A stretch of DNA of 46,924 bases from a virus. Shown in pieces: positions 2,034 to 46,924 of this stretch; positions within the stretch are counted from its first letter, which is position 1; each line of letters starts with the position of its first letter. The notes beneath the pieces are model-generated. The model was not told the origin of the DNA and ran no database searches. It was given only the letters and a program-made list of their open reading frames with translations. The stretch spans positions 1 through 46,924 of IMG/VR virus record IMGVR_UViG_3300017963_000365. One strand, 5' to 3'. Made by a program: the position numbers and the translations under genes.

Positions 2034-2525
2034 TCACCAGGGAAGTAGGGTGGAGAGGTTGCCGTAGATCCAGTAGTAGCCGCTCAGGCCCAGGGCTACG
2101 CTCAGGACGCCGCCCCAGATCGACCAGAATTTGAGGTCAAATGACCGCTCTTCCCGGTCAGCTATCGCCTCCCGAAAGCGGGTCGGGCTCTGTGGTTTCT
2201 TCTTCGGTTTCGGGGAAGACGCAGACAATCCCGTGATCTTCCCCATCGGTTCGTTTCGAATCCGATCCCACACCAGGGCTTCGTTCTCGTTCAGGTGCCC
2301 GTCCACCTGGATCGGCACTTTGAACTCGGCGGGAGGTATCCGCATCACCGTTGAGCCCATCACCTCGTAGGTCGGGCTGTGCGCGTATCGCTTCTCCATC
2401 TCCAGCTCCCCCATTCCGTTCAGGTACATCTGGCTGTTGAGCATGTCCATCCGCTTCGCTTTCGCGGTCAGCATCTCCTGTTGCTGCTGAATCAGATACT
2501 GTAAAGTCTGCGTCAACTGCGCCAT
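2034..2525 (-). CDS. C-terminally anchored membrane protein, 163 aa
   Basis: ATG 2525 is preceded by AAGGAG. The N-terminus is helical and Gln-rich (LTQTLQYLIQQQQEML), the middle is polar, and the C-terminus carries one membrane helix (about 132-152, WGGVLSVALGLSGYYWIYG). No family recognised. Its first 368 nt are also open in the frame of the upstream 283-aa gene. Composition favours this frame as the real one there. A TGA and one codon precede its ATG in the same frame. Confidence 0.75.
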   Translation of the reverse strand: MAQLTQTLQYLIQQQQEMLTAKAKRMDMLNSQMYLNGMGELEMEKRYAHSPTYEVMGSTVMRIPPAEFKVPIQVDGHLNENEALVWDRIRNEPMGKITGLSASSPKPKKKPQSPTRFREAIADREERSFDLKFWSIWGGVLSVALGLSGYYWIYGNLSTLLPW

Positions 2526-3009
2526 CCTTCATCTCCTTCCACTTGGCCGCGGCGATGACAGGATCGGAGCCCAGTCGGTCAGCCAGATCGACCAGCTTAT
2601 CAGCCGTGTCGGCTACGCGGTTCAGCATCTCGCCCACATCGGCTACGGGTTTCAGCTGCTGGAGGAATCCTTCGTCGGTGATCGTCTTCCGGATGAACTC
2701 CAGCAGGACTTCGGATGCCTTGGTGTTGCCCTCGACGGCATCTTCGGAGAGGCGATGCAGGACAGCCGGCACCTTGTCCAGGGCAGCGCCGGCCGTCTTG
2801 ACCAGCGTCTGGTGATACACCTCAGCAGAATCAGCGAGTTTATACCAATTTTGGTTCGGTAATTCACCGTGCTTCAGGGCCAGCTGCTTGAGATTCTTGG
2901 CCCCATGTATATCCTCGCGGAGCTGATGGGGAGTCGCGTGCCAGTTCGAGAGGATGGTCACGCGCTCCTTGTGCTGCGTGGTGGTCGGTCGCCCTTGTTT
3001 TCTCGCCAC
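2158..3009 (-). CDS. Helical DNA-binding-like protein; C-terminal half is probably overrun
   Basis: The first about 160 residues look genuine: a basic N-terminus (MARKQGRPTTTQHKERV) followed by helices (LKQLALKHGEL, DKLVDLADRLGSDPV). A role such as small terminase or DNA-binding regulator is possible but only a guess. From about residue 162 the protein turns Asp/Gly/Ala/Arg-rich, exactly where the next gene starts at 2525, and runs 368 nt on in another frame. I treat residues 162-283 as likely overrun. Whether the true protein ends near 2525 through a frameshift or indel, or really is 283 aa, cannot be settled here. Confidence 0.6.
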   Translation of the reverse strand: MARKQGRPTTTQHKERVTILSNWHATPHQLREDIHGAKNLKQLALKHGELPNQNWYKLADSAEVYHQTLVKTAGAALDKVPAVLHRLSEDAVEGNTKASEVLLEFIRKTITDEGFLQQLKPVADVGEMLNRVADTADKLVDLADRLGSDPVIAAAKWKEMKDGAVDADFTVSDSAATGDADRESEADGHAQQPDVPERNGGAGDGEAIRAQPDLRGDGLNGDADTSRRVQSADPGGRAPERERSPGVGSDSKRTDGEDHGIVCVFPETEEETTEPDPLSGGDS

Positions 3010-4649: not shown

Positions 4650-5165
4650 ATGGGGCGCAAATCGCGTGATAAGGGGGGTCGTATCGAGCGAGAGATAGTG
4701 AACCTGCATCGTCAGGAGGGGTTCTCAGCCGAAAGGGTTCCACTATCGGGTGCCGCAGGCGGTTCGTTTTCCGGAGACGTGCAGATTGAACTTCCGTGGC
4801 GTAATCTGCTGGCTGAGGTCAAGGGCAGAGCGAACGGCGAAGGATTCAAGACCCTGGAAAGGTGGTTAGGGACGAATGACGCCCTTTTCTTGAGGCGGGA
4901 CCGTCAGGAACCTCTGGTGGTCCTGCCTTTCACTATCTGGAAGGAGTTGATGCATGGATGTGCGCCACGAGCCACGCATAGTGTCGGGGGAGCTTTTCAA
5001 CCCCCGCATGGAGATGAACCGGTTCAACCGGTGGCTGGACTACATGAAGGACATGCAGCGGCAGATCAGCCTGCTGGAGATCCGGTTGACGGAGATGAGG
5101 CAGATCGTAGACGTTTGTCTGCCACCGGGGGTGGAGGTGGACTGGGACGCAGAGACGCCGGCTGA
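4650..5165 (+). CDS. Hjc/RecB-like resolvase nuclease (C-terminal overrun)
   Basis: ATG 4650 follows AGGAGG. The first about 100 residues fit the PDDEXK fold of archaeal-type Holliday-junction resolvases. There is a basic opening GRKSRDKGGRIEREIVNLH with the conserved Glu, then SGAAGGSFSGDVQIE (catalytic Asp) and LLAEVKGRA (E-x-K). It ends with FLRRDRQEPLVVLPFTIW. Such enzymes resolve four-way or branched DNA, useful before packaging. After KELM the frame runs 212 nt into the next gene with low-complexity sequence, which I regard as overrun. A TGA in the neighbouring frame lies at 4948-4950. Confidence 0.82.
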   Translation: MGRKSRDKGGRIEREIVNLHRQEGFSAERVPLSGAAGGSFSGDVQIELPWRNLLAEVKGRANGEGFKTLERWLGTNDALFLRRDRQEPLVVLPFTIWKELMHGCAPRATHSVGGAFQPPHGDEPVQPVAGLHEGHAAADQPAGDPVDGDEADRRRLSATGGGGGLGRRDAG

Positions 5166-5373
5166 GGGGCTGGTAGAGAATCTCGCCAAGCAGTTCGACG
5201 AAGTATCCGGCATCAATCTCGACGACTTCACTGGGGATGAGGCGGTGCTGAAGGGAGTCAACCCCAACACAGGAGGCCAAGATGATACACAGCTACCCGA
5301 AGATTTACAACCTGGGCCACAAGGCGATTCGCCGGATGTTCGATGCCCCGGTGCTGGTGCAGGAGAAGATTGA
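4954..5373 (+). CDS. Unknown coiled-coil protein, core about 109 aa
   Basis: AAGGAG (4941-4946) precedes ATG 4954 by seven bases, a strong start inside the nuclease frame. Residues 15-55 form a likely coiled coil (NRWLDYMKDMQRQISLLEIRLTEMRQIV). The rest is acidic and ends around GVNPNTGGQ at the RNA-ligase start. The last 92 nt overlap the ligase gene and read Pro/Gly-rich, probably overrun. Position between resolvase and RNA ligase suggests nucleic-acid processing, but no family is recognised. Confidence 0.65.
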   Translation: MDVRHEPRIVSGELFNPRMEMNRFNRWLDYMKDMQRQISLLEIRLTEMRQIVDVCLPPGVEVDWDAETPAEGLVENLAKQFDEVSGINLDDFTGDEAVLKGVNPNTGGQDDTQLPEDLQPGPQGDSPDVRCPGAGAGED

Positions 5374-6178
5374 CGGATCGCAGTTCTCGTTCGGCTATTT
5401 CGACGGAGAGCTGCTGTTCCGGTCCAAGAAGCGGCAGTTCACCGCGGATACGGCCGACGATCTGTTCCGCACGGCCGTGGAGCGCGTGCAGGAGATCAGC
5501 GGGTTCCTGAAGCCCGGCTGGACCTACCGGGGCGAGTATCTCCGCAAGCCGAAGCACAACTGCCTCGCGTACGATCGCGTGCCGGCGAAGAATATCATCC
5601 TCTTCGACGTGAACATCGGGGAAGAGGACTACCTGGGCACGATGGAGCTGGCCCGGGAAGCGGAGCGCATCGGGATGGAATCGGTGCCGTCTTTCTTCTA
5701 CGGGATGATCAGCGATACGCAGATGCTGGTGGATCTGCTGAACACGCAGTCGGTTCTGGGCGGTCAGAAGATCGAGGGCGTGGTCGTGAAGCAGTATGAG
5801 ATGTTCGACGAGGGGACCGGCAAGGCCCTGATGGCGAAGCACGTCTCCGAGGCGTTCAAGGAGGTCAACCAGGGCAACTTCCGGAGGGAGAATCCGAAGC
5901 CGTCTGACATCCGCGAGGTGCTCATCCAGAAGTATCGGAACGAGAGTCGGTGGAACAAGGCGATCCAGCACCTGCGGGACGAGGGCCGGCTCGACGAGAG
6001 CCCCAAGGACATCGGGCCGCTGATCAAGGAAGTGCAGCGGGACACCCTGGAAGAGGAAGAGGAGCAGATCAAGGAGATGCTGTTCAGCTACATCAAGCCC
6101 CACCTCACCCGGGGGATCGTTCGAGGACTGCCCGAGTGGTACAAGGAAAAGCTCATGGAGCTACAATTCGATGCCTGA
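5282..6178 (+). CDS. RNA ligase, Rnl2-like nucleotidyltransferase
   Basis: A 298-aa ATP-dependent ligase core. Motif I is QEKIDGSQ with the adenylated Lys29; RSKKR (47-51) and YRGEYLRKP (82-90) follow; motif IV is EGVVVK (165-170); motif V contains ALMAKH with Lys186. The family joins 3'-OH and 5'-phosphate ends of RNA or nicked duplexes. The start has AGGAGG five bases upstream. The C-terminal 110 residues are helical and charged and may select substrate. In phages such ligases often counter host tRNA cleavage; the His tRNA at 34911 is of interest here, but the link is speculation. Confidence 0.9.
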   Translation: MIHSYPKIYNLGHKAIRRMFDAPVLVQEKIDGSQFSFGYFDGELLFRSKKRQFTADTADDLFRTAVERVQEISGFLKPGWTYRGEYLRKPKHNCLAYDRVPAKNIILFDVNIGEEDYLGTMELAREAERIGMESVPSFFYGMISDTQMLVDLLNTQSVLGGQKIEGVVVKQYEMFDEGTGKALMAKHVSEAFKEVNQGNFRRENPKPSDIREVLIQKYRNESRWNKAIQHLRDEGRLDESPKDIGPLIKEVQRDTLEEEEEQIKEMLFSYIKPHLTRGIVRGLPEWYKEKLMELQFDA

Positions 6179-7217
6179 CTGGACCCGCGCCTTCCCCAAG
6201 ATTGCCAATCTGGCCTCACGTCTGAAGAGGGAGCCTCACCTGCATGAGTATCTTTCGGAAGCTGATCCAGCAGGGTATGAGGAGCTGCTCAACGTGGCTC
6301 TGTGCCCGTTTATCAACTGGCGTCCGTTCGGTTCGCTCAAGACGAAGAAGGAGCCCGGGTACGCGCAGGCGGGACTCCTGTCGTCGAAGGTTCGAGAGAA
6401 GTGGGGGCAGGCTGGCAACCGAGCAGGAAAGACGGCGGTCGGCGTCTACGAGGACATCTGCGACTGCCTCGGACTCAACCCTATTACCCTGAAGCTCGAG
6501 CAGCGCTTCCGTGTGCATGGGGACGACGGGGCGAAGATGTGGATCGTCTCGGATACGGAGGAGACCAGCATCAACATCATCCAGAAAACGATCGTGCGCG
6601 ATTTCCTGGGCACGGACCAGAATGGGGTGATGTGGAATCTGGTGAAGGACTCCAACGGCTATTCGGAGGGAGGCGGTTTCAAGGGCAACGTGCTCGAATG
6701 GACGAACAACTCCTTCATGGGGTTCAAGTTCACCACGCAGAAGAGGGCCACCTTCCAGGGTGTGCCCTTGCACAAGGTGCATCACGACGAAGTCCAGCCC
6801 AAGGACATCTACGATGAGTGCAAGGCGCGTCTGACGGACTACGCCGGCCGGTTCCTGGGCACCATGACGCCCATCTTCGAGGAGAAGAAGGGTATTCCCT
6901 GGATCTTCGAGGATCTCTACCAGCTGCGCCACGAGAAGGGCATCGAGTTCTTCCGCTGGTCCATGCTGGACAATCCATTCTTGCCTGCTGAAGCGAAGGC
7001 AGACTACATCCGTGGGCTGAACGAGGACGAGGTCGCTGCGCGTGTCCACGGTCTGTTCGTGCCGATGGGTGTGAAGCTGGCGTTCCGCGCCAAGCTGCTC
7101 AACGCGATGCAGGGAAACATCGAAATGCCGGTCGAGGGCGACCTGATGGTGAACGGCGAGGGACAGGTCGAGTTCGTTCGCAATTTCGAGGAGGCCGAGA
7201 CCTATGGTATCGAGTAA
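6171..7217 (+). CDS. terL: Large terminase, ATPase subunit (split TerL)
   Basis: The 348-aa packaging motor domain. Walker A is GQAGNRAGKT (79-88). Walker B is HKVHHDEV with D206/E207. The coupling motif is GTMTP (230-234). The protein then ends at the place where one-piece terminases run on into the RNase-H-like nuclease. No Asp-rich nuclease strand (xGxDPSEG) is present. That domain is a separate gene at 10450. The start overlaps the RNA-ligase stop by 8 nt. It is part of the motor that threads DNA through the portal. Confidence 0.93.
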   Translation: MPDWTRAFPKIANLASRLKREPHLHEYLSEADPAGYEELLNVALCPFINWRPFGSLKTKKEPGYAQAGLLSSKVREKWGQAGNRAGKTAVGVYEDICDCLGLNPITLKLEQRFRVHGDDGAKMWIVSDTEETSINIIQKTIVRDFLGTDQNGVMWNLVKDSNGYSEGGGFKGNVLEWTNNSFMGFKFTTQKRATFQGVPLHKVHHDEVQPKDIYDECKARLTDYAGRFLGTMTPIFEEKKGIPWIFEDLYQLRHEKGIEFFRWSMLDNPFLPAEAKADYIRGLNEDEVAARVHGLFVPMGVKLAFRAKLLNAMQGNIEMPVEGDLMVNGEGQVEFVRNFEEAETYGIE

Positions 7218-8247
7218 CGCACCGCACAGGCGGGTAGCCCTGGTTATCCCGCACATGGACCGTCACATCTTCCTCGACCGAATGCTGGCCTACTACCAGT
7301 GGGCTCAGTTCGAGGGAGGCATCTACATCATCGACGCCAGCGAAGACGGGGATGCAGTAAAGCACGTAACAGTGGATGGTGTAAACGTGCGGCATCTACA
7401 CGTCCCCGAACTGCGTGACCCTTTCCAGAATCGCTCCCAGTTCTTCATGCAGCTGGCGCTGGGAGGAGAGCTGGCCGCGCAGGACGGGTATGACTTCATC
7501 GTCCACGCCGGCAACGACGACTTCATCCTGCCGGTGGGTCTGGATGTCTGTGTAAGATATCTGGACGATTTTCCTGACGAGCCCCTGGCCGTGGGCCAGC
7601 GGTACCAGTTCGCCCTGGACCGGGAGGGACCGTTCGGGAACCTGATGCGCTTCAATCTGGTCAAGTATCCACCCATGACCAGCTGGTCTATCGGAGAGCG
7701 CCTGGGCTCGTGGTTCCAGATGCCGTTCACGCTCCAGTTCGGCGTGATGCGGACCCCGGTCTACTGCGAGATCCACAACCGGATGAACGCGGCGAACATG
7801 CCGACCTTCTACGTGGGCAACGAGCTGTTCGCCAACATGAGCCTGCTGATGGAGGGCAAGATCGAGCAGGCCACCCAGGTGCCCACGGTTCTGTTCCAGC
7901 AGCACAACGACAAGCCCTTCTTCTGGGGCACGAACGCGAAGATCTCGGTCGGGCTCATGTGCGACGAGAACTTCGGTCTCTCCTGGGGCAACATGGTCGG
8001 CATCCTCTCGCAGAAGTGGCTGTCGAAGGAGGACGACAAGGACGAGCTGTTCGTGCGGGAGGCGCTGGGAGCCCTGCTGAGTCAGCACCTCAGCTCTCTG
8101 CTGATGGTGGCCGACATACAGCCGCTGAAGCCCCTGGTGTTCATGCCGCAGGACGATCCTTACACGCTGCCCGAGGACGCGCCGAACCGGCAGCACATCC
8201 AGCCCATCTTCGATCTGATGCAGGGCTGTGGGGAGTTCGTCAAATGA
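7204..8247 (+). CDS. GT-A glycosyltransferase (TIGR00180-like)
   Basis: A 347-aa protein. The N-terminal Rossmann-like half opens RVALVIPHMDRHIFLDRML, has a nucleotide-sugar strand (GGIYIIDASEDGD), and carries FIVHAGNDDFILP, the DxD-type metal site typical of the TIGR00180-like sugar transferases seen in phage and polysaccharide loci. Acceptor and sugar are unknown. It starts 14 nt inside the terminase ATPase gene and its stop overlaps the next start by 4 nt (ATGA), so it is translated within the terminase operon. The family call rests on motif recognition only. Confidence 0.72.
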   Translation: MVSSNAPHRRVALVIPHMDRHIFLDRMLAYYQWAQFEGGIYIIDASEDGDAVKHVTVDGVNVRHLHVPELRDPFQNRSQFFMQLALGGELAAQDGYDFIVHAGNDDFILPVGLDVCVRYLDDFPDEPLAVGQRYQFALDREGPFGNLMRFNLVKYPPMTSWSIGERLGSWFQMPFTLQFGVMRTPVYCEIHNRMNAANMPTFYVGNELFANMSLLMEGKIEQATQVPTVLFQQHNDKPFFWGTNAKISVGLMCDENFGLSWGNMVGILSQKWLSKEDDKDELFVREALGALLSQHLSSLLMVADIQPLKPLVFMPQDDPYTLPEDAPNRQHIQPIFDLMQGCGEFVK

Positions 8248-8738
8248 CAACTCGAGTTCGCATCACTGAGCTGGGCCGGTATCCCGAGGAGATCCTGGCC
8301 GACCACATGGACGAGATGCACGGATCGGAGGACATCAGCCGGCGCTGGCAATGGAGGTATGCCAAGCTGCTCAAGGCCGAGGATGATCCGGTCGACTTCG
8401 TCCACCGCTGGGTCTTCAACCCGAAGTTCCACGTTATCTGCCAGAAGGACAAGACGGACCCGGTCGTGCTGGACTGCCCCGAGGGCAAGTTCCTGATCTG
8501 CGACGAGGAGTTCTACGACGACGTAGCGACGGCGATGATCCTGATGGGGACCACCATGCTGCGCAGCAAGCCGGTATTCGGGTTCGACTTCCTGAACCTG
8601 CAAACGAACGAGATTGCCGCCAAGGCATTCACCGCGGAGACGGTCGATGAAGAAGACGCTGGTAATTCCGACGATTCGCCGGGAAGAGGTCGAGACCTTC
8701 CTGACCAAGTCAGCCGGCGAGGTGACAAATTTCGATGA
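8244..8738 (+). CDS. Unknown protein in the terminase cassette, core about 134 aa
   Basis: ATGA overlap with the preceding glycosyltransferase. It begins MTTRVRITELGRYPEEILADHMDEM and contains an alpha/beta-looking centre (FHVICQKDKTDPVVLDCPEGKF is on the border of two strands). The last about 30 residues overlap the next gene by 92 nt and read Asp/Gly/Arg-rich. No family recognised. Translational coupling to both glycosyltransferases suggests an accessory role in the same modification pathway. Confidence 0.7.
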   Translation: MTTRVRITELGRYPEEILADHMDEMHGSEDISRRWQWRYAKLLKAEDDPVDFVHRWVFNPKFHVICQKDKTDPVVLDCPEGKFLICDEEFYDDVATAMILMGTTMLRSKPVFGFDFLNLQTNEIAAKAFTAETVDEEDAGNSDDSPGRGRDLPDQVSRRGDKFR

Positions 8739-9624
8739 GCTGATCCTCGTCTGGGACGGGCCCGAAGCTCCGAAGATCACCGCACCCTGGATGTGGGACT
8801 ACCAGGGGAAGATGCAGGTCTACGATCACCGGGACATGGATGCGTGCCCCGATTCGTGGATCTGGTCGCGGGGCTCCTCAGCCTGCCGCTCCTTCGGATT
8901 CATGATGGCGGTGCACCACGGCGCGGACATCATCTTCACCTGCGACGACGACGTGGAGCTGCAACCCGGCTGGGTGGAGAAGCACATGGAGAATCTGAGC
9001 AAGATTCACTCAGTGCCCATGTGGGCTGAGACGCTGGAGGGTACGCCTACCCGGGGGTATCCCTACCTGGGGACCACGCAGTCGATGGAGACGGTTCTGT
9101 CTCACGGGCTCTGGTCGAACGTGGCCGACTGGGATGCCATGCAGCAGCTGGCGAAGGGGCGAGGGACCGGAGGACTGGCTCCGAACACCAAGTACAAGCA
9201 GATGGCGCTCTACGGCTGCTACTTCCCGATGTGCGGCATGAATCTGGCGTTCAAGAAGAAGATTGCCCCGCTCATGTACTTCGGGCTCCAGGGACGCGGC
9301 CAGCCCTTCGACCGGTTCGACGACATATGGTGCGGCGTGATCCTGCAACGGATTGCCCGTCGATTCAACTGGATCTGCTGGACCGGTGATCCCATCGTGA
9401 TCCACAAACGCGCCTCAAACGCCATGAAGAATCTGGAAAAGGAAGTGCCGGGAATCCAGATGCACGAACACTTCTGGCAATGGATACAGGAAGTCCGGCT
9501 CTCCGGACGCACGCCCTACGAGTGCTTCGACGAGATTGCCGATGTGATCGAGAAGAAGGGCCCGTTGGACTACTGGGGCAAGCTGGCCGCAGCGATGCGG
9601 CTCTACATGGCGAAGACCCGATGA
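8647..9624 (+). CDS. GT75/RGP-like (reversibly glycosylated polypeptide) enzyme
   Basis: A 325-aa protein with GGAG eight bases before ATG 8647. It opens KTLVIPTIRREEVETFL; DxD motif FTCDDDVELQPG; later PMCGMNLAFKKK and MYFGLQGRGQPFDRFDDIW. The last two blocks closely resemble the conserved PMCGMN and YFGL-GxGQPxxRxDD segments of plant reversibly glycosylated polypeptides / UDP-arabinopyranose mutases (GT75). Family members rearrange UDP-arabinose or self-glycosylate. Here it sits between the split terminase halves beside another glycosyltransferase. Activity in this phage is inferred. Confidence 0.82.
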   Translation: MKKTLVIPTIRREEVETFLTKSAGEVTNFDELILVWDGPEAPKITAPWMWDYQGKMQVYDHRDMDACPDSWIWSRGSSACRSFGFMMAVHHGADIIFTCDDDVELQPGWVEKHMENLSKIHSVPMWAETLEGTPTRGYPYLGTTQSMETVLSHGLWSNVADWDAMQQLAKGRGTGGLAPNTKYKQMALYGCYFPMCGMNLAFKKKIAPLMYFGLQGRGQPFDRFDDIWCGVILQRIARRFNWICWTGDPIVIHKRASNAMKNLEKEVPGIQMHEHFWQWIQEVRLSGRTPYECFDEIADVIEKKGPLDYWGKLAAAMRLYMAKTR

Positions 9625-9845
9625 TCCCGAAGTGGATGTCGGACAGGAAGCCTCACCTGCCGTTCGGCTCACCCCGGCAACTGAACCGGCAGGAATGGGA
9701 AGCGGTGGTGGAGGAGATCACCCACTTGCGGGGACAACTTGCTGCCCAGCAAGAAGAGATCCGCAAACTCAAGTTGAAGCTCGACACCGTCCATCTGGAC
9801 CCAGAGCTTCAGCGCAACCTCTACGAACGAGGAGAGACGAGATGA
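9621..9845 (+). CDS. Small coiled-coil protein, 74 aa
   Basis: The start overlaps the preceding stop (ATGA). After a Pro-rich lead, residues 27-56 form one long heptad-like helix (WEAVVEEITHLRGQLAAQQE, then EIRKLKLKL). It ends in ATGA overlap with the next gene. It could be an oligomerisation adaptor; no family recognised. Confidence 0.72.
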   Translation: MIPKWMSDRKPHLPFGSPRQLNRQEWEAVVEEITHLRGQLAAQQEEIRKLKLKLDTVHLDPELQRNLYERGETR

Positions 9846-10150
9846 ACCCGACTGGATTCGTGCAGCATTGCCTGGACCTGTTGGCGAACGCGGAAGAGGA
9901 CGTGGTGGCCCTGGTGCTCCCGAGAGAGTTGTTTCCGGAGGATAAGCATCACACCTACTTCGGCTGCATCGTCGCCGGCATCAAGGTCATCCCGCACGAC
10001 GGGTCCATGACCATGTTCTGGACGATGGAGGACATGGAGACGTTCCGGCTGTTCGAGCACCAGCAGAGGGCCTGGGGCGCGGCCATGCACTATTTCGATT
10101 ACTTCACCAGTGAGCTGGAGAAGAAAGCGAGGAAGGGATATGTCGGATGA
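9842..10150 (+). CDS. Unknown alpha/beta protein, 102 aa
   Basis: Begins MNPTGFVQHCLDLLANAEED after an upstream GAGGAGAG. A strand-rich centre (YFGCIVAGIKVIP, SMTMFWTMEDMETF) is followed by a C-terminal helix. ATGA coupling upstream and an 11-nt overlap downstream place it in the cassette between the terminase halves. No function assigned. Confidence 0.72.
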   Translation: MNPTGFVQHCLDLLANAEEDVVALVLPRELFPEDKHHTYFGCIVAGIKVIPHDGSMTMFWTMEDMETFRLFEHQQRAWGAAMHYFDYFTSELEKKARKGYVG

Positions 10151-10490
10151 ACAGACGAAGGTTCCTAACCCATCTCCTTGGGGGCGCAACTGGCGCGGCT
10201 GTAGCCGTGACCTCACCCGGGAAGATCTCGACGCTGCTATCGAGGCTTTCAAGGATATGGAAGTCCCGCTCACACCCGCCCAGTATGAGGCGATCATCGA
10301 GCGGTATAATCGGGCTGGAAGGCCGATTGGCCTCATCGAACTCGTGTGTGACGTTGTTGGACATCGACCGGGCGATAGTAGCCTCATGGAAGACGAAGCC
10401 GATCCGGAATCCGGACTGGATGAAACCGAGAGGGACTGGGTAGACGATTATGAGTATTGTCTCGGGACAGGGCCTGCTCCAGGTAGCTGA
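10140..10490 (+). CDS. Unknown helical protein, 116 aa
   Basis: ATG 10140 has AGGGA upstream. A Trp/Arg N-terminus (PSPWGRNWRGCSRDLTREDLD) precedes two helices and an acidic C-tail (ETERDWVDDYEY). The last 41 nt overlap the terminase nuclease gene, which may translationally couple the two. No family recognised. Confidence 0.68.
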   Translation: MSDEQTKVPNPSPWGRNWRGCSRDLTREDLDAAIEAFKDMEVPLTPAQYEAIIERYNRAGRPIGLIELVCDVVGHRPGDSSLMEDEADPESGLDETERDWVDDYEYCLGTGPAPGS

Positions 10491-11364
10491 TCCGAAAGAT
10501 CATCTGCTGATGGACCAGGGCAAGCTCATCGAGCTGCTCACGGCCAAGAAGCGGATCTGCGAATACAAGATGCGGCTGTGGGAAGGCCCGAAGCGGGGAT
10601 TCCACTACGCCATCGGTATCGACCCCTCAGAGGGCTTGCTGCACGGCGATGCAGCCGCCATCGAGGTATTCTGCGTGGAGACCGGCCGGCAGGTGATGGA
10701 GGTGGAAGGAACGATCCACCCCTTCGATCTGGCTGAGATCGCGTGGCTGGTGGGTACCTACTATTCGCACCGGGTGATCAAGGACGGGATCGAGGTATGC
10801 ACACCGGCCCTGGTCGCCATCGAGAATAACAAGGACGGGGGAGCGAACGCCAAGCTCTTGGAGCTGGGCTACACGAACCTCTACTTCCTGGCCGAGGACA
10901 AGGGAGAGGGATACCAGCAGCAGCTGCCCAAGCTGGGTATCAACATGAGCAGCCGGCGTCGTGCCGAGCTGATTTCCAAGGGGCGCAACTGGTGCGAGGA
11001 TGGCTCTGTCATCGTCAAGTCCAGCCTGCTCCTGGGGCAGATGGAGATCTTCCAGCTGAGGAACGGCAAGTTCCAGGCTCCGCTGGGAGGGCACGACGAC
11101 CTCGTCATGGCTTTCCTCATCACGGTCGAGATGATCGAGGTGGTGCAGCTCACGATGGAGCTGAACGCGAAGGAGGGCCTGCGTCCTTACGCCGATGGGC
11201 AGAAGGTGCCCCACGACGAGACCGATGTGGGGGATGAGTGGGAGGAGGAGAAGCCCCTGGTCGAGAAGCTGATCGAGCGGACCCGGGAGAAGCAGAAGGA
11301 AGCCGGCCCAGAGGAGTGGGTCACGGAATTTGACAACCTCGACGACATGGAGGGAATGTGGTGA
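10450..11364 (+). CDS. terL: Large terminase, nuclease subunit (split TerL)
   Basis: A 304-aa RNase-H-fold nuclease of the terminase type. First catalytic strand HYAIGIDPSEGLLHGD with D58; IENN with E125 after the second strand block; GGHDDLVMAF with D216/D217. It lacks a Walker A site. The N-terminal 50 residues are extra relative to a fused enzyme and could contact the ATPase subunit. The nuclease cuts concatemeric DNA at initiation and termination of packaging. It is separated from the ATPase by six genes on the same strand and probably on one transcript. The C-terminus is acidic and helical. Confidence 0.9.
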   Translation: MSIVSGQGLLQVADPKDHLLMDQGKLIELLTAKKRICEYKMRLWEGPKRGFHYAIGIDPSEGLLHGDAAAIEVFCVETGRQVMEVEGTIHPFDLAEIAWLVGTYYSHRVIKDGIEVCTPALVAIENNKDGGANAKLLELGYTNLYFLAEDKGEGYQQQLPKLGINMSSRRRAELISKGRNWCEDGSVIVKSSLLLGQMEIFQLRNGKFQAPLGGHDDLVMAFLITVEMIEVVQLTMELNAKEGLRPYADGQKVPHDETDVGDEWEEEKPLVEKLIERTREKQKEAGPEEWVTEFDNLDDMEGMW

Positions 11365-11681
11365 ATATATGGATGATGGTACTCATAGTACTCATGTTTA
11401 TCACACTCTACGCGCTTCAAGTCTGGGCATCTGCCTGGAGAGCGCGGGAGGACATGAGAGAGCGTGCGGCCATCCTGGCACACTTCTACGAGCTGGCCAA
11501 GCAGCCGCCGATCATCATGGGGGCACAAGAGCCCCCACAGGAAGGGCTTCGAGACCCAGTGAGGGAATACTATGAGGATATGGCAGGTGCCTCGGACCTG
11601 GACTACGTGGAAGCCCTGGAGGAGGCAGAGCGGCAAACGTCCAGTGTCGACGACGTGGAGGGGTCCGATGCCCCGAGTTGA
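11361..11681 (+). CDS. N-terminally anchored membrane protein, 106 aa
   Basis: A GTG start at 11361 overlaps the nuclease stop (GTGA), with GGAGGG six bases upstream. One membrane helix at residues 3-25 (IWMMVLIVLMFITLYALQVW) is followed by a charged cytoplasmic-type tail ending in acidic sequence (SSVDDVEGSDAPS). Function unknown. It sits between terminase and the acidic protein just before the virion promoter. Confidence 0.75.
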   Translation: MNIWMMVLIVLMFITLYALQVWASAWRAREDMRERAAILAHFYELAKQPPIIMGAQEPPQEGLRDPVREYYEDMAGASDLDYVEALEEAERQTSSVDDVEGSDAPS

Positions 11682-12399
11682 TCCCGATTCAGAAGTTGAC
11701 GGCTATTATACCGGTATCGGCAAGGCCGGTGAGGACGACGGTGGCGTAGGAGCCATCGTGATCGGGGGTGTTGAGCACTTCGGACCTGAGTTCGAGTGGG
11801 GCGACCCGATCCGCGCATCCCGGGCCTGGAAGAAGATGAGCCCTGAGAAGCGCAAGGCGTTCATCAAGTACAAGAGCAATCGTCCGAAGAAGGGGGTAAA
11901 CGTGGATATGCAGCGGATGCAGGCCGAGATCAACGACCTGAAGGGCTCTGTGGAGCTGCTCACCCAGCTGATTGCCCGAAAGGAGGGGATAGATCTCGGT
12001 GCGAAAACGACTGAGGAAGAAGCTGTCGAGGACTTTGAAATGGATTCCGGACAGCGAAAACGGAAGATTGTTGGCGAGGCACCGTGGAAGGATCGTCAGC
12101 CGACCCATGATCCCGAGTTGGCAATCCCCGAGGAACTCGCGGAGATGGAAGATGCATTTGAAACCCCAGAAGACGAGTCTCTCGTTGATGATGCGGCTCT
12201 GGATGGTTTCCTTGCAGGAACAGATGATGAAGGAGATGTGGACCTCGATGCTGAACTCGCGGCCCTCCCTGAGCGTAAACCGGCCGTTCAACTGGAGCCA
12301 GTTCGAGAAAGAAAGCCGGCCCTACGAAGGGTACCAGATAAGCCCAGCGTTCGGGTGGACGATGCCTTTCCAGAGGACTTCTGGGATGGGTATTCTTAG
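11668..12399 (+). CDS. Acidic unknown protein, 243 aa (possible packaging accessory)
   Basis: GGAGGGG precedes ATG 11668. A short glycine-rich domain (GVGAIVIGGVEHFGPEFEWG) is followed by a basic helix (MSPEKRKAFIKYKSNRPKKG), a coiled coil (MQRMQAEINDLKGSVELLTQ) and a long Asp/Glu-rich tail. Small terminases combine a DNA-binding N-terminus with a coiled coil, so that role is possible, but nothing here proves it. Last gene before the terminator/promoter at 12454-12500. Confidence 0.72.
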   Translation: MPRVDPDSEVDGYYTGIGKAGEDDGGVGAIVIGGVEHFGPEFEWGDPIRASRAWKKMSPEKRKAFIKYKSNRPKKGVNVDMQRMQAEINDLKGSVELLTQLIARKEGIDLGAKTTEEEAVEDFEMDSGQRKRKIVGEAPWKDRQPTHDPELAIPEELAEMEDAFETPEDESLVDDAALDGFLAGTDDEGDVDLDAELAALPERKPAVQLEPVRERKPALRRVPDKPSVRVDDAFPEDFWDGYS

Positions 12400-12453
12400 A
12401 AATATCGTGTCGTAACATGGGGTAAATGCCCCAAACAAAGTAGTTTGAACCAC

Positions 12454-12492
12454 TTGGCACCGTCAGCCCACTTGACAGGTGCCAATTTTATT
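12454..12492 (+). terminator. Intrinsic terminator before the virion operon
   Basis: TTGGCACC (12454-12461) pairs with GGTGCCAA (12478-12485), followed by TTTTATT. A smaller hairpin TGGGG/CCCCA lies at 12418-12433. The right arm is also the start of the spacer of the promoter listed next. Confidence 0.75.
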
Positions 12493-12500
12493 GTCATATT
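12472..12500 (+). promoter_or_regulatory. Virion-operon sigma-70 promoter, nested in a terminator
   Basis: TTGACA (12472-12477), 17-nt spacer, CATATT (12495-12500), 41 nt before the portal ATG. The -35 box lies in the loop of the terminator hairpin, so upstream transcription ends where the virion transcript begins. Confidence 0.68.
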
Positions 12501-12541
12501 TCTCCCTGACTGAGACAAGTACGTCACACAGGGGGAAAGAT

Positions 12542-14716
12542 ATGCCGGCAAGACCTTCCAGAAAGCTCTCCGATAATCCCATGACCGACTGGGGAGACCG
12601 TCCGAAGAAGGAAGTGGACGAGATCTCGATGGTCGAGGACTTCTGGGATTACGCTTCGCAGTCTCGCCTGGGGCTGGAGCAGCGGATCAAGGAGGCGCTT
12701 CACTTCGTAGCTGGCGACCAGTGGATTCGTTATCTCCCGCATTCTCGCAGGTTTACGAGACATGCCCGGGAGGACTGGAAGCCCACGCCTACGACCAATT
12801 ACCTGCTGAGAACCTACGACCGGGTCATGGACATCTTCCTCTCCGGTGATGTGCGGCCGAACGTAGAGCCGGCGACCGAGGATCTGGACGATGTGGACGC
12901 TGCTATGGTGGCAAGGCGCATCCTCTGGTCCGAGTTCGAGCGATTGAAGACGGATACCAAGCTGCATCTGCCAGCGATCTCGTGGCTCCTCACGGCTGGC
13001 ACGGTCTTCCTGGGAGCCTTCTGGGACGCTCACAGCGGCCAGCGAGTGCGTAGACCGGTTATGAACCGGTATGAGAAGGAGATGACCGCAGAGGGCGTTA
13101 CGTGCCCCCAGTGCGGTTATCAGGCGTATTCTGAGCTGGTTCCCGAGCGGATCTGTCCGGAGTGTCAGGGACAGATGCAGGAGGAGGAGGTCTTCGCCCT
13201 GGACAACCAGGGGATGCCGATCAAGGAGATGGTCTCCGAGCCGGTGCTCGACGACAAGGGACGCAAGAAGTATCGTGAGGTCCGGATGGGCAACATCATC
13301 GAGTCGGTGGTGAGCCCCTTGAACTTCTTCCCCGGGCCGGCACGCAAGATGGAGGATGTTCGCACGGTGATCGAGATTGACCCGTGGGACATCGAGAAGG
13401 TCCGCGACATCTTCGGCAGCAAGGCCGGCAAGTGTGTCGCAGAGGATCTGGACTACGAGAATTGGGGTGGAGCGAATGCGAATACCCTAAGCACCTATTT
13501 TTCAGACCAGTTAGAGAAGCAGCGTCACCGCGTGATCATGAAGTTCTTCCGCACCGTGGGCGACAGACGGTGGCCGAAGGGCATGTTCAAGATCGTAGCG
13601 AACGGCGTGCTGCTCCACTCTGGTCCGCTGGACAGCACCGATCCCAACGATCTGGGCTACTCGATGATCAAGTATCGAGAACTGCCCGGTCAGTTCTGGG
13701 GCGGGAGCCTGTTCACCCCGTTGATCCCCATTCAGAAGCGGATCAACAGCATCGACAGCCATGTGATCCAGAATCGCAAGCAGATGGTGAGTAATCAGTG
13801 GCTGGTTCCAGACGGTTCAGGCGTAACGAAGACTTCGGGTAGACAGGGGCTGGTGGTCCGATGGTCGCCACGCACCTCGATGGGATACAAGCCTGAGCGC
13901 CTACCTGGGGTTCCGGTCCCCGCGCAGGTAATCAACGAGCGCGAGGCAAGCATTGTGGCTCTGGAGGATGTGGGTGGTGATAAGGAAGTGCTGGGAGGAG
14001 ACATTCCTCCAGGGCCCGAGACGGGCGCAGCGATTGAAGCCTTGCAGGAACAGGCACTTAGACGCTTCCTGCCGATGGTCAAGCTCTGGAGAGCGGGGCT
14101 GGCCGAGCACGAGCACCGCAAGCTGAAGCTGTGCGACAAGCACTGGGCTGAGAGCCGGCTGGTGAAGTGCATCGGGAAGAATAAGATGCTGGAAGCCTTC
14201 TACTACTCGAGGGCTGACCTGTTCGGCACGAAGGACATGACCATCAAGGTGAGCATCGGCATGGCTCACGGTCAGGCCGCGAAGCGGCAGACCCTCATGC
14301 AGGCCGCAGCTCAGGGGCTGCTGGGGGATATCACCCGACCCGAGATCCGTGGTAGGCTGTTGGAGAAGCTGGAGATCGAGGGATTCGAGTTCGAGTATCA
14401 GCTCGACGCCGACAAGGCGCGGAGGGATCTGGAGAAGCTCAAGGCCGGCAAGACCCTGCCGGAGCCGAACCCCCTGGAGGAGCCAGGGATCTTCTTCAGT
14501 GTGCTGCGTGAGTTTGTGCTCACCAGTGAATTTGAGGCGCTGCCGGCTGCGAACCAGCAGGCGATCATGCAGCGTGCTCTGATGTATCAGCAGATGCAGA
14601 TGCAACGCCAGCAGGAGGCGATGGCCGCAGCTCAGGCCACCAAGGGCACGGGGGATGCCGTGGCAGAGGACGTTCGCGCAACGGGCGCAACGGGCCAGCC
14701 GGTCCCCACAGGATGA
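12542..14716 (+). CDS. Portal protein (P22-like size) with zinc-ribbon insert
   Basis: A 724-aa protein starting MPARPSRKLSDNP with GGGGGAAAG upstream. It has the podovirus portal layout: an N-terminal helix with FWDYASQSRLGLEQRI, the GDQW block, YLLRTYDRVMDIFLSGDVRP, a stem region with RLGLEQ-type helices, and a C-terminal Gln/Met-rich barrel helix (MQMQRQQEAMAAAQ). Twelve copies form the vertex ring through which DNA passes. An insert carries CPQC (C188, C191) and CPEC (C205, C208), a treble-clef or ribbon zinc site. The position directly before scaffold and capsid supports the call. Confidence 0.9.
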   Translation: MPARPSRKLSDNPMTDWGDRPKKEVDEISMVEDFWDYASQSRLGLEQRIKEALHFVAGDQWIRYLPHSRRFTRHAREDWKPTPTTNYLLRTYDRVMDIFLSGDVRPNVEPATEDLDDVDAAMVARRILWSEFERLKTDTKLHLPAISWLLTAGTVFLGAFWDAHSGQRVRRPVMNRYEKEMTAEGVTCPQCGYQAYSELVPERICPECQGQMQEEEVFALDNQGMPIKEMVSEPVLDDKGRKKYREVRMGNIIESVVSPLNFFPGPARKMEDVRTVIEIDPWDIEKVRDIFGSKAGKCVAEDLDYENWGGANANTLSTYFSDQLEKQRHRVIMKFFRTVGDRRWPKGMFKIVANGVLLHSGPLDSTDPNDLGYSMIKYRELPGQFWGGSLFTPLIPIQKRINSIDSHVIQNRKQMVSNQWLVPDGSGVTKTSGRQGLVVRWSPRTSMGYKPERLPGVPVPAQVINEREASIVALEDVGGDKEVLGGDIPPGPETGAAIEALQEQALRRFLPMVKLWRAGLAEHEHRKLKLCDKHWAESRLVKCIGKNKMLEAFYYSRADLFGTKDMTIKVSIGMAHGQAAKRQTLMQAAAQGLLGDITRPEIRGRLLEKLEIEGFEFEYQLDADKARRDLEKLKAGKTLPEPNPLEEPGIFFSVLREFVLTSEFEALPAANQQAIMQRALMYQQMQMQRQQEAMAAAQATKGTGDAVAEDVRATGATGQPVPTG

Positions 14717-18173: not shown

Positions 18174-19904
18174 ATGAGTTGGAAGGAAGACTGGCAGTAC
18201 GCAGATGCGAAGCGGTGGAAGAAGCACTTCGAGGAGAGCTTCGACCGCTTGCGCTCCGAGCACGGGCTCCAGCCCATTCCGGCCGGAGGACAACTCCAGC
18301 TGGACCCGGTGGAAACGCAGCTGCACGCACGTCTGAAGGAAGTGGATGGGAAAATGATCGAGGTGGGATGCGGAGCCGGACATCTCACCATCGCTCTCCT
18401 CTCCGGAGGGCGCGACATCTGCGCGTGCGACATCTCCGAGAAGGCGATCAAGCACGCCAAGCAGCACATCGCAGGACAGTTCAAGGACAAGTTCTTCCAG
18501 TCCCCGGTCGAGCAGCTGGGTGGACGGAAGGGCAGCTACGACACGGTCATCGCGCACAACCTGATTCCGCAGGTGCGAGACCCGAAGAAGGCCCTGGAGG
18601 TTCTCTGGGCCCTGGTCAAGGACGGCGGTTCCCTGGTGCTGACCGCACCGGTATCGAACCGTCTGGGCGACGATCCGGATCAGATCCACGAATACTCCCA
18701 GGACGGCTTTCGCCGGCTGGTGGAGGAAGTGACGGGTCGAGTTCGGAATAAGCACACCGCGCTGGCAGGGCGCGTCTCTCTGCTGATCTGCGTGAAGGAG
18801 GAGATTGCCCTCCGCTACACGCAGGTGGGGATGCACCTCGACGACTGTCGAGCCGCCATGTCGAGCATGGAGACCGAGGCCCTCAAGACGGGCTTCTGGA
18901 ACTGGCAGCGGGTCTTCCAGGGCGACATGCAGACCTACAAGCAGCTGGACTACGCGGAGCTGGACTGCGTGCATGTGCAGCTGGCCGGCGCTACGATGAA
19001 TGCGGTTCGCCGCATCCACAACGAGAAGCCGGATCATGTACAGGTCGTGGCGCAGATCGACTACTCGGTCGAGACGTGGAACAACCTGGGGCAGGATCTG
19101 GAGCTGGTGATGGACAATCTGGCTCTGGCCGACCACATCATCGCCGTCGAGCCCCGCAGCGCACAGCTGCTGCACCACCTGACCGGACGCCCGGTGCATC
19201 TGTTACCGCACCCGGTGCCGGTGGACCTGATCAAGCAGATTCAGGTGCAGGAAGCCGCGCGGTTCGGACTGCTGATCTCCACGCACCGCGACGGAGACTG
19301 GTCCACGCCCTACTGGGTGGCCCGGGAGTATCCCGAGACCTACCTGTCGGGCTGGGAAGGAGAGGAGACCAGCTCCAACTTCGTCGCCCTCACCCGTCTC
19401 TACTACGACGAGGTGTTGCCGATCTGCTCCGGCGACGAGCACGTTCGCTTCATGGCCCTCAGATGGGCCGTATTCGAAGCCTACCGCCACTCGGTGTTCA
19501 GCCGGGTATCGGCCGAGGCCGCGGCGTTAGGTGTCCCCTGCGTAGGCTACGACTGTTGCTGGGGGATGAAGTATCTCTTCCCGCACCTGACGGTGCCGGT
19601 GGGAGACTTGATGGGCATTCGAGAGAAGCTGGCCTGGATCGCAGATCCGGTGGCCTACAGTAAGGTTTCTCAATATGCGCAGCATATGGTTCAGACGCTG
19701 GACCTTGAGTGGGCCGGCAATCGTTTCCTGAACATGCTGAACGGAGTTGAGAACGAACCCATAGGAGATCTCGATGTATATCCCGGACTGGTTTTTTCTG
19801 AAGAAACTGAAGCAGCACGACGTGAAGCTGGGAGTGAAATGGTGTCCGATCCGAGAGCGGTGGGTCGTCCATCGGCGCATACCCAGATTGAATCACCTGT
19901 ATGA
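18174..19904 (+). CDS. Methyltransferase-glycosyltransferase fusion
   Basis: GAAGGAGG precedes ATG 18174. Residues 1-190 are a class I methyltransferase: MIEVGCGAGHLTIALL (motif I), ICACDISEKAI, TVIAHNLIPQVRD, KDGGSLVLTAPVS. Residues about 210-535 resemble a GT-B glycosyltransferase: ADHIIAVEPRSAQLLHHLTG, a Pro-rich linker HLLPHPVPVDL, and the nucleotide-sugar-binding end RVSAEAAALGVPCVGYDC. It lies among head genes, so a virion protein or the host envelope are candidate acceptors. The last about 43 residues overlap the next gene by 131 nt and look like overrun. Confidence 0.78.
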   Translation: MSWKEDWQYADAKRWKKHFEESFDRLRSEHGLQPIPAGGQLQLDPVETQLHARLKEVDGKMIEVGCGAGHLTIALLSGGRDICACDISEKAIKHAKQHIAGQFKDKFFQSPVEQLGGRKGSYDTVIAHNLIPQVRDPKKALEVLWALVKDGGSLVLTAPVSNRLGDDPDQIHEYSQDGFRRLVEEVTGRVRNKHTALAGRVSLLICVKEEIALRYTQVGMHLDDCRAAMSSMETEALKTGFWNWQRVFQGDMQTYKQLDYAELDCVHVQLAGATMNAVRRIHNEKPDHVQVVAQIDYSVETWNNLGQDLELVMDNLALADHIIAVEPRSAQLLHHLTGRPVHLLPHPVPVDLIKQIQVQEAARFGLLISTHRDGDWSTPYWVAREYPETYLSGWEGEETSSNFVALTRLYYDEVLPICSGDEHVRFMALRWAVFEAYRHSVFSRVSAEAAALGVPCVGYDCCWGMKYLFPHLTVPVGDLMGIREKLAWIADPVAYSKVSQYAQHMVQTLDLEWAGNRFLNMLNGVENEPIGDLDVYPGLVFSEETEAARREAGSEMVSDPRAVGRPSAHTQIESPV

Positions 19905-46072: not shown

Positions 46073-46924
46073 TTACGCTACAGCGAACGCTTCATGCATC
46101 TGAGCGGCCACGGCTTCGAGTGCATAATCGGTATAGTCGTCAGCGTAGCCGCCGTCGTAGGAAGCGCCGCTGTCTACCTTGCGGGATAGAAGCATCGGGA
46201 TAAGACCATCTCCATCGTAGCCAGAGGTGGTGCTGGCGTCCACGTCCGAACCGTCATTCGGAGCACAGTCAATCATCTCCAGGCCCGGGATATCCGAGCC
46301 AGCTTCGCGGAAGAGCAGCTCCGCTCCCTCTTGCGTAAAGGCACGGATGACCATTTCGCCGTAGGCGTCCGCGTTCGTGCGGTCTGTGGTAAACGTGACG
46401 GTGAAGGGTATCTTGCGTGCTTCCACAAGGTCTTCGTGGATGCGATCAACGTTCTTGGGCGAGTGGCAAAGAATGCGCTGGGGGTGCCACTGAAAGGTGC
46501 AGATCCAGCCAGCGGTGTTCTTGGGCGTGACGCCGGCGGGGTAGATCCAGTATTCAAAGAAGTGCGGGTGCATGTAGACGCTGCAAGACGGCGTCTGGCC
46601 CGGGGCATGCTCGACCTCCCAATACTTGGGATTGTCGCCGTTGCGCACGATGGTCTTGACGCCGGCCACGGCCTTGCGTGCGGCCCTGAGAGCCGGCTTG
46701 AGACTGTTGAAGCGGCGAATGCCGCGCTGACCCAAGCGGATCAGCTGGGCGTTGTCCAGCTCCGTGGAACCGAGCTGGCCACACTCGATCCAGCTGTCGC
46801 GGATCTCGAAGAAGTGACGCCAAGCGGCCTTCGCCTGGGGCGAGCCCTTGCCGCTGTCGCCCTCGATGCTGCGTGCGTCCCGCGCCAGCCGTTTCAGCTG
46901 GAAGCGTGCCACGATCTCCAAATC
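46073..46924 (-). CDS. Unknown phage protein, edge copy B (5'-truncated)
   Basis: Open from the window edge to TAA 46073, 283 codons; the true start lies outside. By comparison with the left copy about 34 residues are missing, giving a full protein of about 317 aa. The shared core is as described for copy A (YMHPHFFEYWIYPAG). The C-terminal 90 residues, absent from copy A here, are Asp/Gly/Ser-rich (DCAPNDGSDVDASTTSGYDG) and end MHEAFAVA. Followed by a very strong terminator. Function not recognised; abundant expression is inferred. Confidence 0.85.
   Translation of the reverse strand, partial: DLEIVARFQLKRLARDARSIEGDSGKGSPQAKAAWRHFFEIRDSWIECGQLGSTELDNAQLIRLGQRGIRRFNSLKPALRAARKAVAGVKTIVRNGDNPKYWEVEHAPGQTPSCSVYMHPHFFEYWIYPAGVTPKNTAGWICTFQWHPQRILCHSPKNVDRIHEDLVEARKIPFTVTFTTDRTNADAYGEMVIRAFTQEGAELLFREAGSDIPGLEMIDCAPNDGSDVDASTTSGYDGDGLIPMLLSRKVDSGASYDGGYADDYTDYALEAVAAQMHEAFAVA
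46809..46924. repeat. 116-bp direct repeat, right copy
   Basis: Identical to 476-591. Lies at the extreme right edge, within edge gene B. Confidence 0.97.

Follow-up and report, generated by a model that had tools for sequence, protein, structure and literature searches.

The window, by which we mean the whole stretch of 46,924 bases that was analysed, is a single IMG/VR virus record whose topology class in IMG/VR is linear. Its two ends (1-591 and 46334-46924) match each other without gaps at 87.3% identity, constituting an imperfect direct terminal repeat, and this match suggests that strain variants went into the assembly and that the record is probably close to a complete genome, which in turn makes it unlikely that a full-length large terminase (TerL) has been missed.

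An intact ORF on the plus strand (6171..7217, 348 aa) encodes the terminase ATPase (TerL-N) and no nuclease, ending in what corresponds to the linker region. Its Walker A motif (residues 79-88, GQAGNRAGKT), the D206/E207 pair of Walker B, and the GTMTP coupling motif (residues 230-234) align with columns that are invariant, or nearly so, across 13 homologues, and the N-terminal P-loop ATPase of a T4-like TerL is present with all three motifs. Pfam Terminase_6N is matched by 10 of these 13 homologues; the window protein taken alone gave no match to it, and its predicted structure is poor (pLDDT 49). Directly upstream lies an RNA ligase gene (5282-6178; PF09414, E 4.3e-12), which overlaps the ATPase gene by 8 nt and for which no homologue was found among the clade loci searched.

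The terminase RNase-H-like nuclease (TerL-C, 304 aa) is encoded by a second intact plus-strand ORF (10450..11364), which carries the D/E/D triad of a T4-like TerL and no ATPase. Residues D58, E125, and D216/D217 correspond to the invariant D18, E85, and D176/D177 of nuclease alignment A2, the profile built from A2 matches the RB49/T4 gp17 nuclease (E 2.7e-8), and the fold predicted for the protein corresponds to those of T4 gp17 (3cpe, E 1.1e-9) and G20c (5m1f, E 2.2e-8). There are two candidate starts, 10450, which overlaps the preceding gene by 41 nt, and 10570, and the homologous nuclease domain begins at about 10561-10570. Neither half alone strongly matches a named terminase family, whereas the profiles built with relatives do, and the ATPase profile and the nuclease profile each match once in the whole record. 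An earlier sequence-only reading had assigned ATPase motifs alone to the first gene and the nuclease alone to the second, and both assignments hold. That reading also hinged on the 6171 protein having no nuclease domain and on there being no second full TerL elsewhere; indeed, the profile searches found neither in the 46,924-base record. The two domains are therefore not in one polypeptide as in a T4-like TerL, and the same is true of 52 other contigs.

The surroundings contain several further genes. A small membrane gene (11358..11681, +) lies between the nuclease and the portal, and genes of the same position and size are found in two relatives (L048, 3886-4161; L050, 6658-6897). A gene at 4650-5165 weakly resembles the Hjc Holliday junction resolvase; it is conserved upstream of TerL in many relatives, but lies downstream of the nuclease in L038, L043, L045, and L052. 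In the structural region, a 576-aa protein (18174-19904) has an N-terminal methyltransferase-like match (phrog_22502, E 1.8e-7). On the minus strand, the gene at 2158-3009 is conserved across the clade with a weak DUF5681 match, and its position and relatives suggest that it may be a small terminase.

A six-gene cassette between the two halves

Six genes, all intact as the sequence-only reading had described them, occupy 3.2 kb between the window ATPase and nuclease genes (7204-10490, all on the plus strand). The first (7204..8247, 347 aa), which overlaps the end of the ATPase gene, stop included, by 14 nt (7204-7217), encodes a TIGR00180-family glycosyltransferase (TIGR04440, E 7.1e-26, above the cut-off). 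It is joined by an ATGA junction to the second (8244..8738, 164 aa), which is without a significant family match. The third (8647..9624, 325 aa) encodes a protein like RGP and UDP-arabinopyranose mutase, since PF03214 (E 1e-38) spans residues 5-319 and thus most of its length, and PDB 8cid is matched as well (E 6.8e-18). The fourth (9621..9845, 74 aa, probably a coiled coil) and the fifth (9842..10150, 102 aa) each begin at an ATGA junction, and the sixth (10140..10490, 116 aa) precedes the nuclease gene; no family could be assigned to the second, fourth, fifth, or sixth gene. The earlier description of two glycosyltransferases is accordingly right for the 7204 gene and is to be amended for the 8647 gene, which is of the RGP/UDP-arabinopyranose-mutase type. 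Similarly, coupling by ATGA or short overlaps is seen at the ATGA junctions, and does not extend to the 8244 and 8647 genes, which overlap by 92 nt.

Among phages, the RGP-like protein matches only one, an uncultured phage of 595 kb (38%), with further matches in Planctomyces and haloarchaeal plasmids. The cassette would probably serve to modify a component of the phage or of its host with sugar, and the six-gene operon would most likely supply a furanose sugar and transfer it to a phage or host-surface target.

It could be asked whether the cassette is an assembly chimaera, or the phage defective and only a remnant. No close copy of this single contig was found, its ends match at only 87%, so that strains were mixed in the assembly, and no homologue of the cassette genes was detected in the clade; neither did exact-peptide patterns, a strict test, find relatives of these genes in viral contigs. 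On the other hand, overlapping frames cross both cassette junctions (14 nt at 7204-7217, and 41 nt at 10450-10490 if the first nuclease start is used), G+C is uniform at 0.57-0.61, all genes are intact, and other contigs hold other genes in the same place, and we thus consider such an artefact or remnant very improbable.

Divided TerL genes in related contigs

Relatives of the window were found by a portal-anchored search, followed by ATPase and nuclease profile searches of viral contigs. The portal protein (12479..14716, +; phrog_156, E 1.7e-11), which served as the marker for finding the clade, retrieved 25 contigs at 44-57% identity, and in every one of these that reached far enough upstream the ATPase and nuclease are separate ORFs. 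A search of viral contigs with the single window ATPase sequence found nothing, and genome contigs scanned with ATPase profile A1 gave no relatives. In total, 52 contigs besides the window have the two domains in different ORFs, and 50 of them belong to the main clade, which a branch with support 100 separates from the rest. Some contigs are near-identical, and the 52 rows of the concatenated tree represent 44 different sequences. The window TerL sits on a long branch, so that where exactly it belongs in the clade is uncertain, and the clade members, all uncultured bacterial viruses, are metagenomic contigs, known here from sequence alone.

TerL is split in each of the 50 other main-clade contigs for which both halves could be located, and in most of these no gene separates the two. 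The halves remain neighbours in the same order across the clade, with TerL-N of about 330-350 aa and TerL-C of about 245-305 aa. The genes share ancestry and their split point is homologous: the ATPase ends 34-52 aa past the LAF motif and the nuclease starts with M-x-Y-x-L-R. ATPase tail and nuclease head together amount to 39-57 residues in four split relatives and to 84 in the window. In L098 (1252-2565) and L099, the ATPase ORF before the nuclease gene has a C-terminal extension of about 90 residues with paired cysteines, resembling a zinc ribbon. The junctions include ATGA/GTGA overlaps (for example L034 and L033), overlaps of 14-44 nt (41-44 nt in L038, L043, and L045), a 1-nt gap (L035), and inserted genes, and the relative frame of the two halves is 0, 1, and 2 in 13, 22, and 18 of the 53 contigs including the window. 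In four close pairs the ATPase has a dN/dS of about 0.04-0.13 and the nuclease one of about 0.02-0.08, with dS near saturation in some, and both halves are therefore kept under strong purifying selection.

Given that terL introns and inteins do exist, as the intron of ICP1 (PMC10448857) and the inteins of Mic1 (PMC7156551) demonstrate, the halves might conceivably be joined by RNA splicing, protein splicing, or ribosomal recoding. However, all three relative frames occur together with varied junctions, which excludes a common recoding signal and shows that each half is translated as a gene of its own, and several relatives have entire coding genes between the two. Ribosomal frameshift or readthrough was rejected on account of the frames. 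An intron was rejected likewise, no Rfam match being found in 5200-12500 up to E 1, and no homing endonuclease that could have caused an insertion was present among the slot proteins searched. The earlier statement that the locus is neither an intron nor an intein, its genes being intact and coupled, is therefore upheld, and joining of the halves by any of these routes is hardly credible.

A search for relatives with fused or split TerL had been proposed from the sequence alone, and it returned both: the 52 split contigs, and two sister contigs, L092 and L094, in which a single fused ORF holds both domains. These two are the only fused cases found, with 63 residues from the LAF motif to the nuclease start (counted by hand in L092). 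They are the nearest homologues with both domains, which stand in the same order as in the window, and differ in having them in one ORF. Their own sisters L095/L096 are split too, with two genes between the halves. When the tree is rooted with fused cultured phages, it requires two changes, which could be a pair of fissions or a fission and a re-fusion.

The cassette is younger than the split, because the main-clade contigs are split, mostly with nothing between the halves. The implication of the sequence-only reading, that a cassette placed inside TerL had divided it, must for the same reason be abandoned. Fission characterises the clade and is ancestral to its sampled members, and the cassette sits between genes that, by the order of events we infer, were already separate.

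The junction as an insertion slot

At least one gene lies between the halves in 16 contigs other than the window, and the window insert is the largest among them. The slot of L064/L066 contains an endolysin (Peptidase_M15_3, E 3.7e-12; phrog endolysin, E 1.5e-21), and in L031, L036, L063, and L069 a homologue of it immediately precedes the ATPase gene. That of L048 and L073-75 holds a paralogue of the conserved minus-strand upstream gene (window 2158-3009), whose homologue is present twice in L073 and L075. A small acidic family occupies the slot of L076, L082, L083, L084, and L106, and orphan genes that of L050/L080 and L077. On the main-clade tree, 4 changes are counted for the presence of any insert and 7 when gene families are counted, and judging from these contents the slot has repeatedly taken unrelated gene families.

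With the two genes already separate, inserts at this position would spare the motor, and the junction would in this way have become a slot for accessory genes. It also illustrates how accessory genes, such as those for lysis or sugar modification, can enter an essential module once an essential gene has split.

A proposed unlinked motor and known systems

We hold with good confidence the explanation as a whole, in which the TerL gene would have undergone fission at the ATPase-nuclease linker before the sampled clade members diverged, with TerL-N and TerL-C then translated from coupled genes within a single operon, their products reassembling unlinked, and their junction serving as an accessory slot. 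At the portal vertex the halves would come together again non-covalently, with the ATPase-nuclease interface and the remaining linker tails probably holding them, and would then translocate and cut DNA. The claim made from the sequence alone that the subunits must assemble in trans is thus sound as regards two separate polypeptides, with no signs of splicing or recoding, and is to be softened as regards the complex: trans assembly of TerL-N and TerL-C at the portal is the most likely arrangement.

The two halves have the same domains and catalytic residues as T4 gp17, to which profile and fold matches connect them. However, gp17 is one polypeptide, and in reviews TerL is an ATPase with a flexible linker connecting it to a nuclease (PMC7617512). 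Cutting gp17 at this linker keeps the ATPase and nuclease activities and abolishes DNA translocation in vitro (PMC3012670, PMC9958956), so that the linker is essential in vitro (PMC3012670). Since split gp17 lost translocation, one cannot take for granted that an unlinked motor works. In another reading TerL-N alone translocates and TerL-C is a detached cutter for initiation and termination only, not a stoichiometric part of the ring. The halves are independently encoded, up to 3.2 kb apart, and other unlinked nucleases assist packaging, such as the HNH protein beside the HK97 terminase (PMC10448857). Yet the two genes stay neighbours in the same order across the clade, and in T4 the translocation groove lies in the nuclease domain and is needed for translocation (PMC3012670), which makes a detached cutter unlikely compared with reassembly of both halves at the portal.

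A broader picture may also be drawn, to which we give tentative weight: a whole lineage may run on an unlinked motor whose nuclease can be supplied separately, for which the covalent linker that seemed essential from T4 is dispensable, and in which the gap is a standing slot for accessory operons. The clade matters because a cut at the linker stops translocation by T4 gp17, and yet here the halves are apart under purifying selection. A two-gene motor thus offers a natural test of whether the motor halves need joining, and the clade is a natural system for asking whether force passes through the linker, how the halves stay together, and whether they may be present in a ratio other than 1:1.

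A sugar-enzyme cassette inside TerL, which most phages make as one protein, had been called very unusual; a divided TerL is not without precedent. In Arthrobacter cluster AY phages the annotation places the ATPase and nuclease domains of TerL on two ORFs, genes 2 and 3 of BlueShadow being an example of what is characteristic of most AY phages (PMC12820723). These phages form plaques (PMC12820723), and a split TerL is therefore viable. By annotation, their TerL resembles that of the window in consisting of two intact genes, in this case of isolated, viable phages, and differs in lacking any reported intervening cassette; none of the matches to the window ATPase was recognised as an AY phage. 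The terL genes of ICP1 and Mic1 are interrupted on the genome like that of the window, but there splicing restores one TerL, whereas searches of the window revealed neither an intron nor a homing endonuclease, and ordinary coding genes make up its insert. Split TerL is thus already known, and, allowing for other reports that may exist beyond the open-access papers searched, the clade-wide fission, with the six-gene cassette of the window, adds to a known kind.
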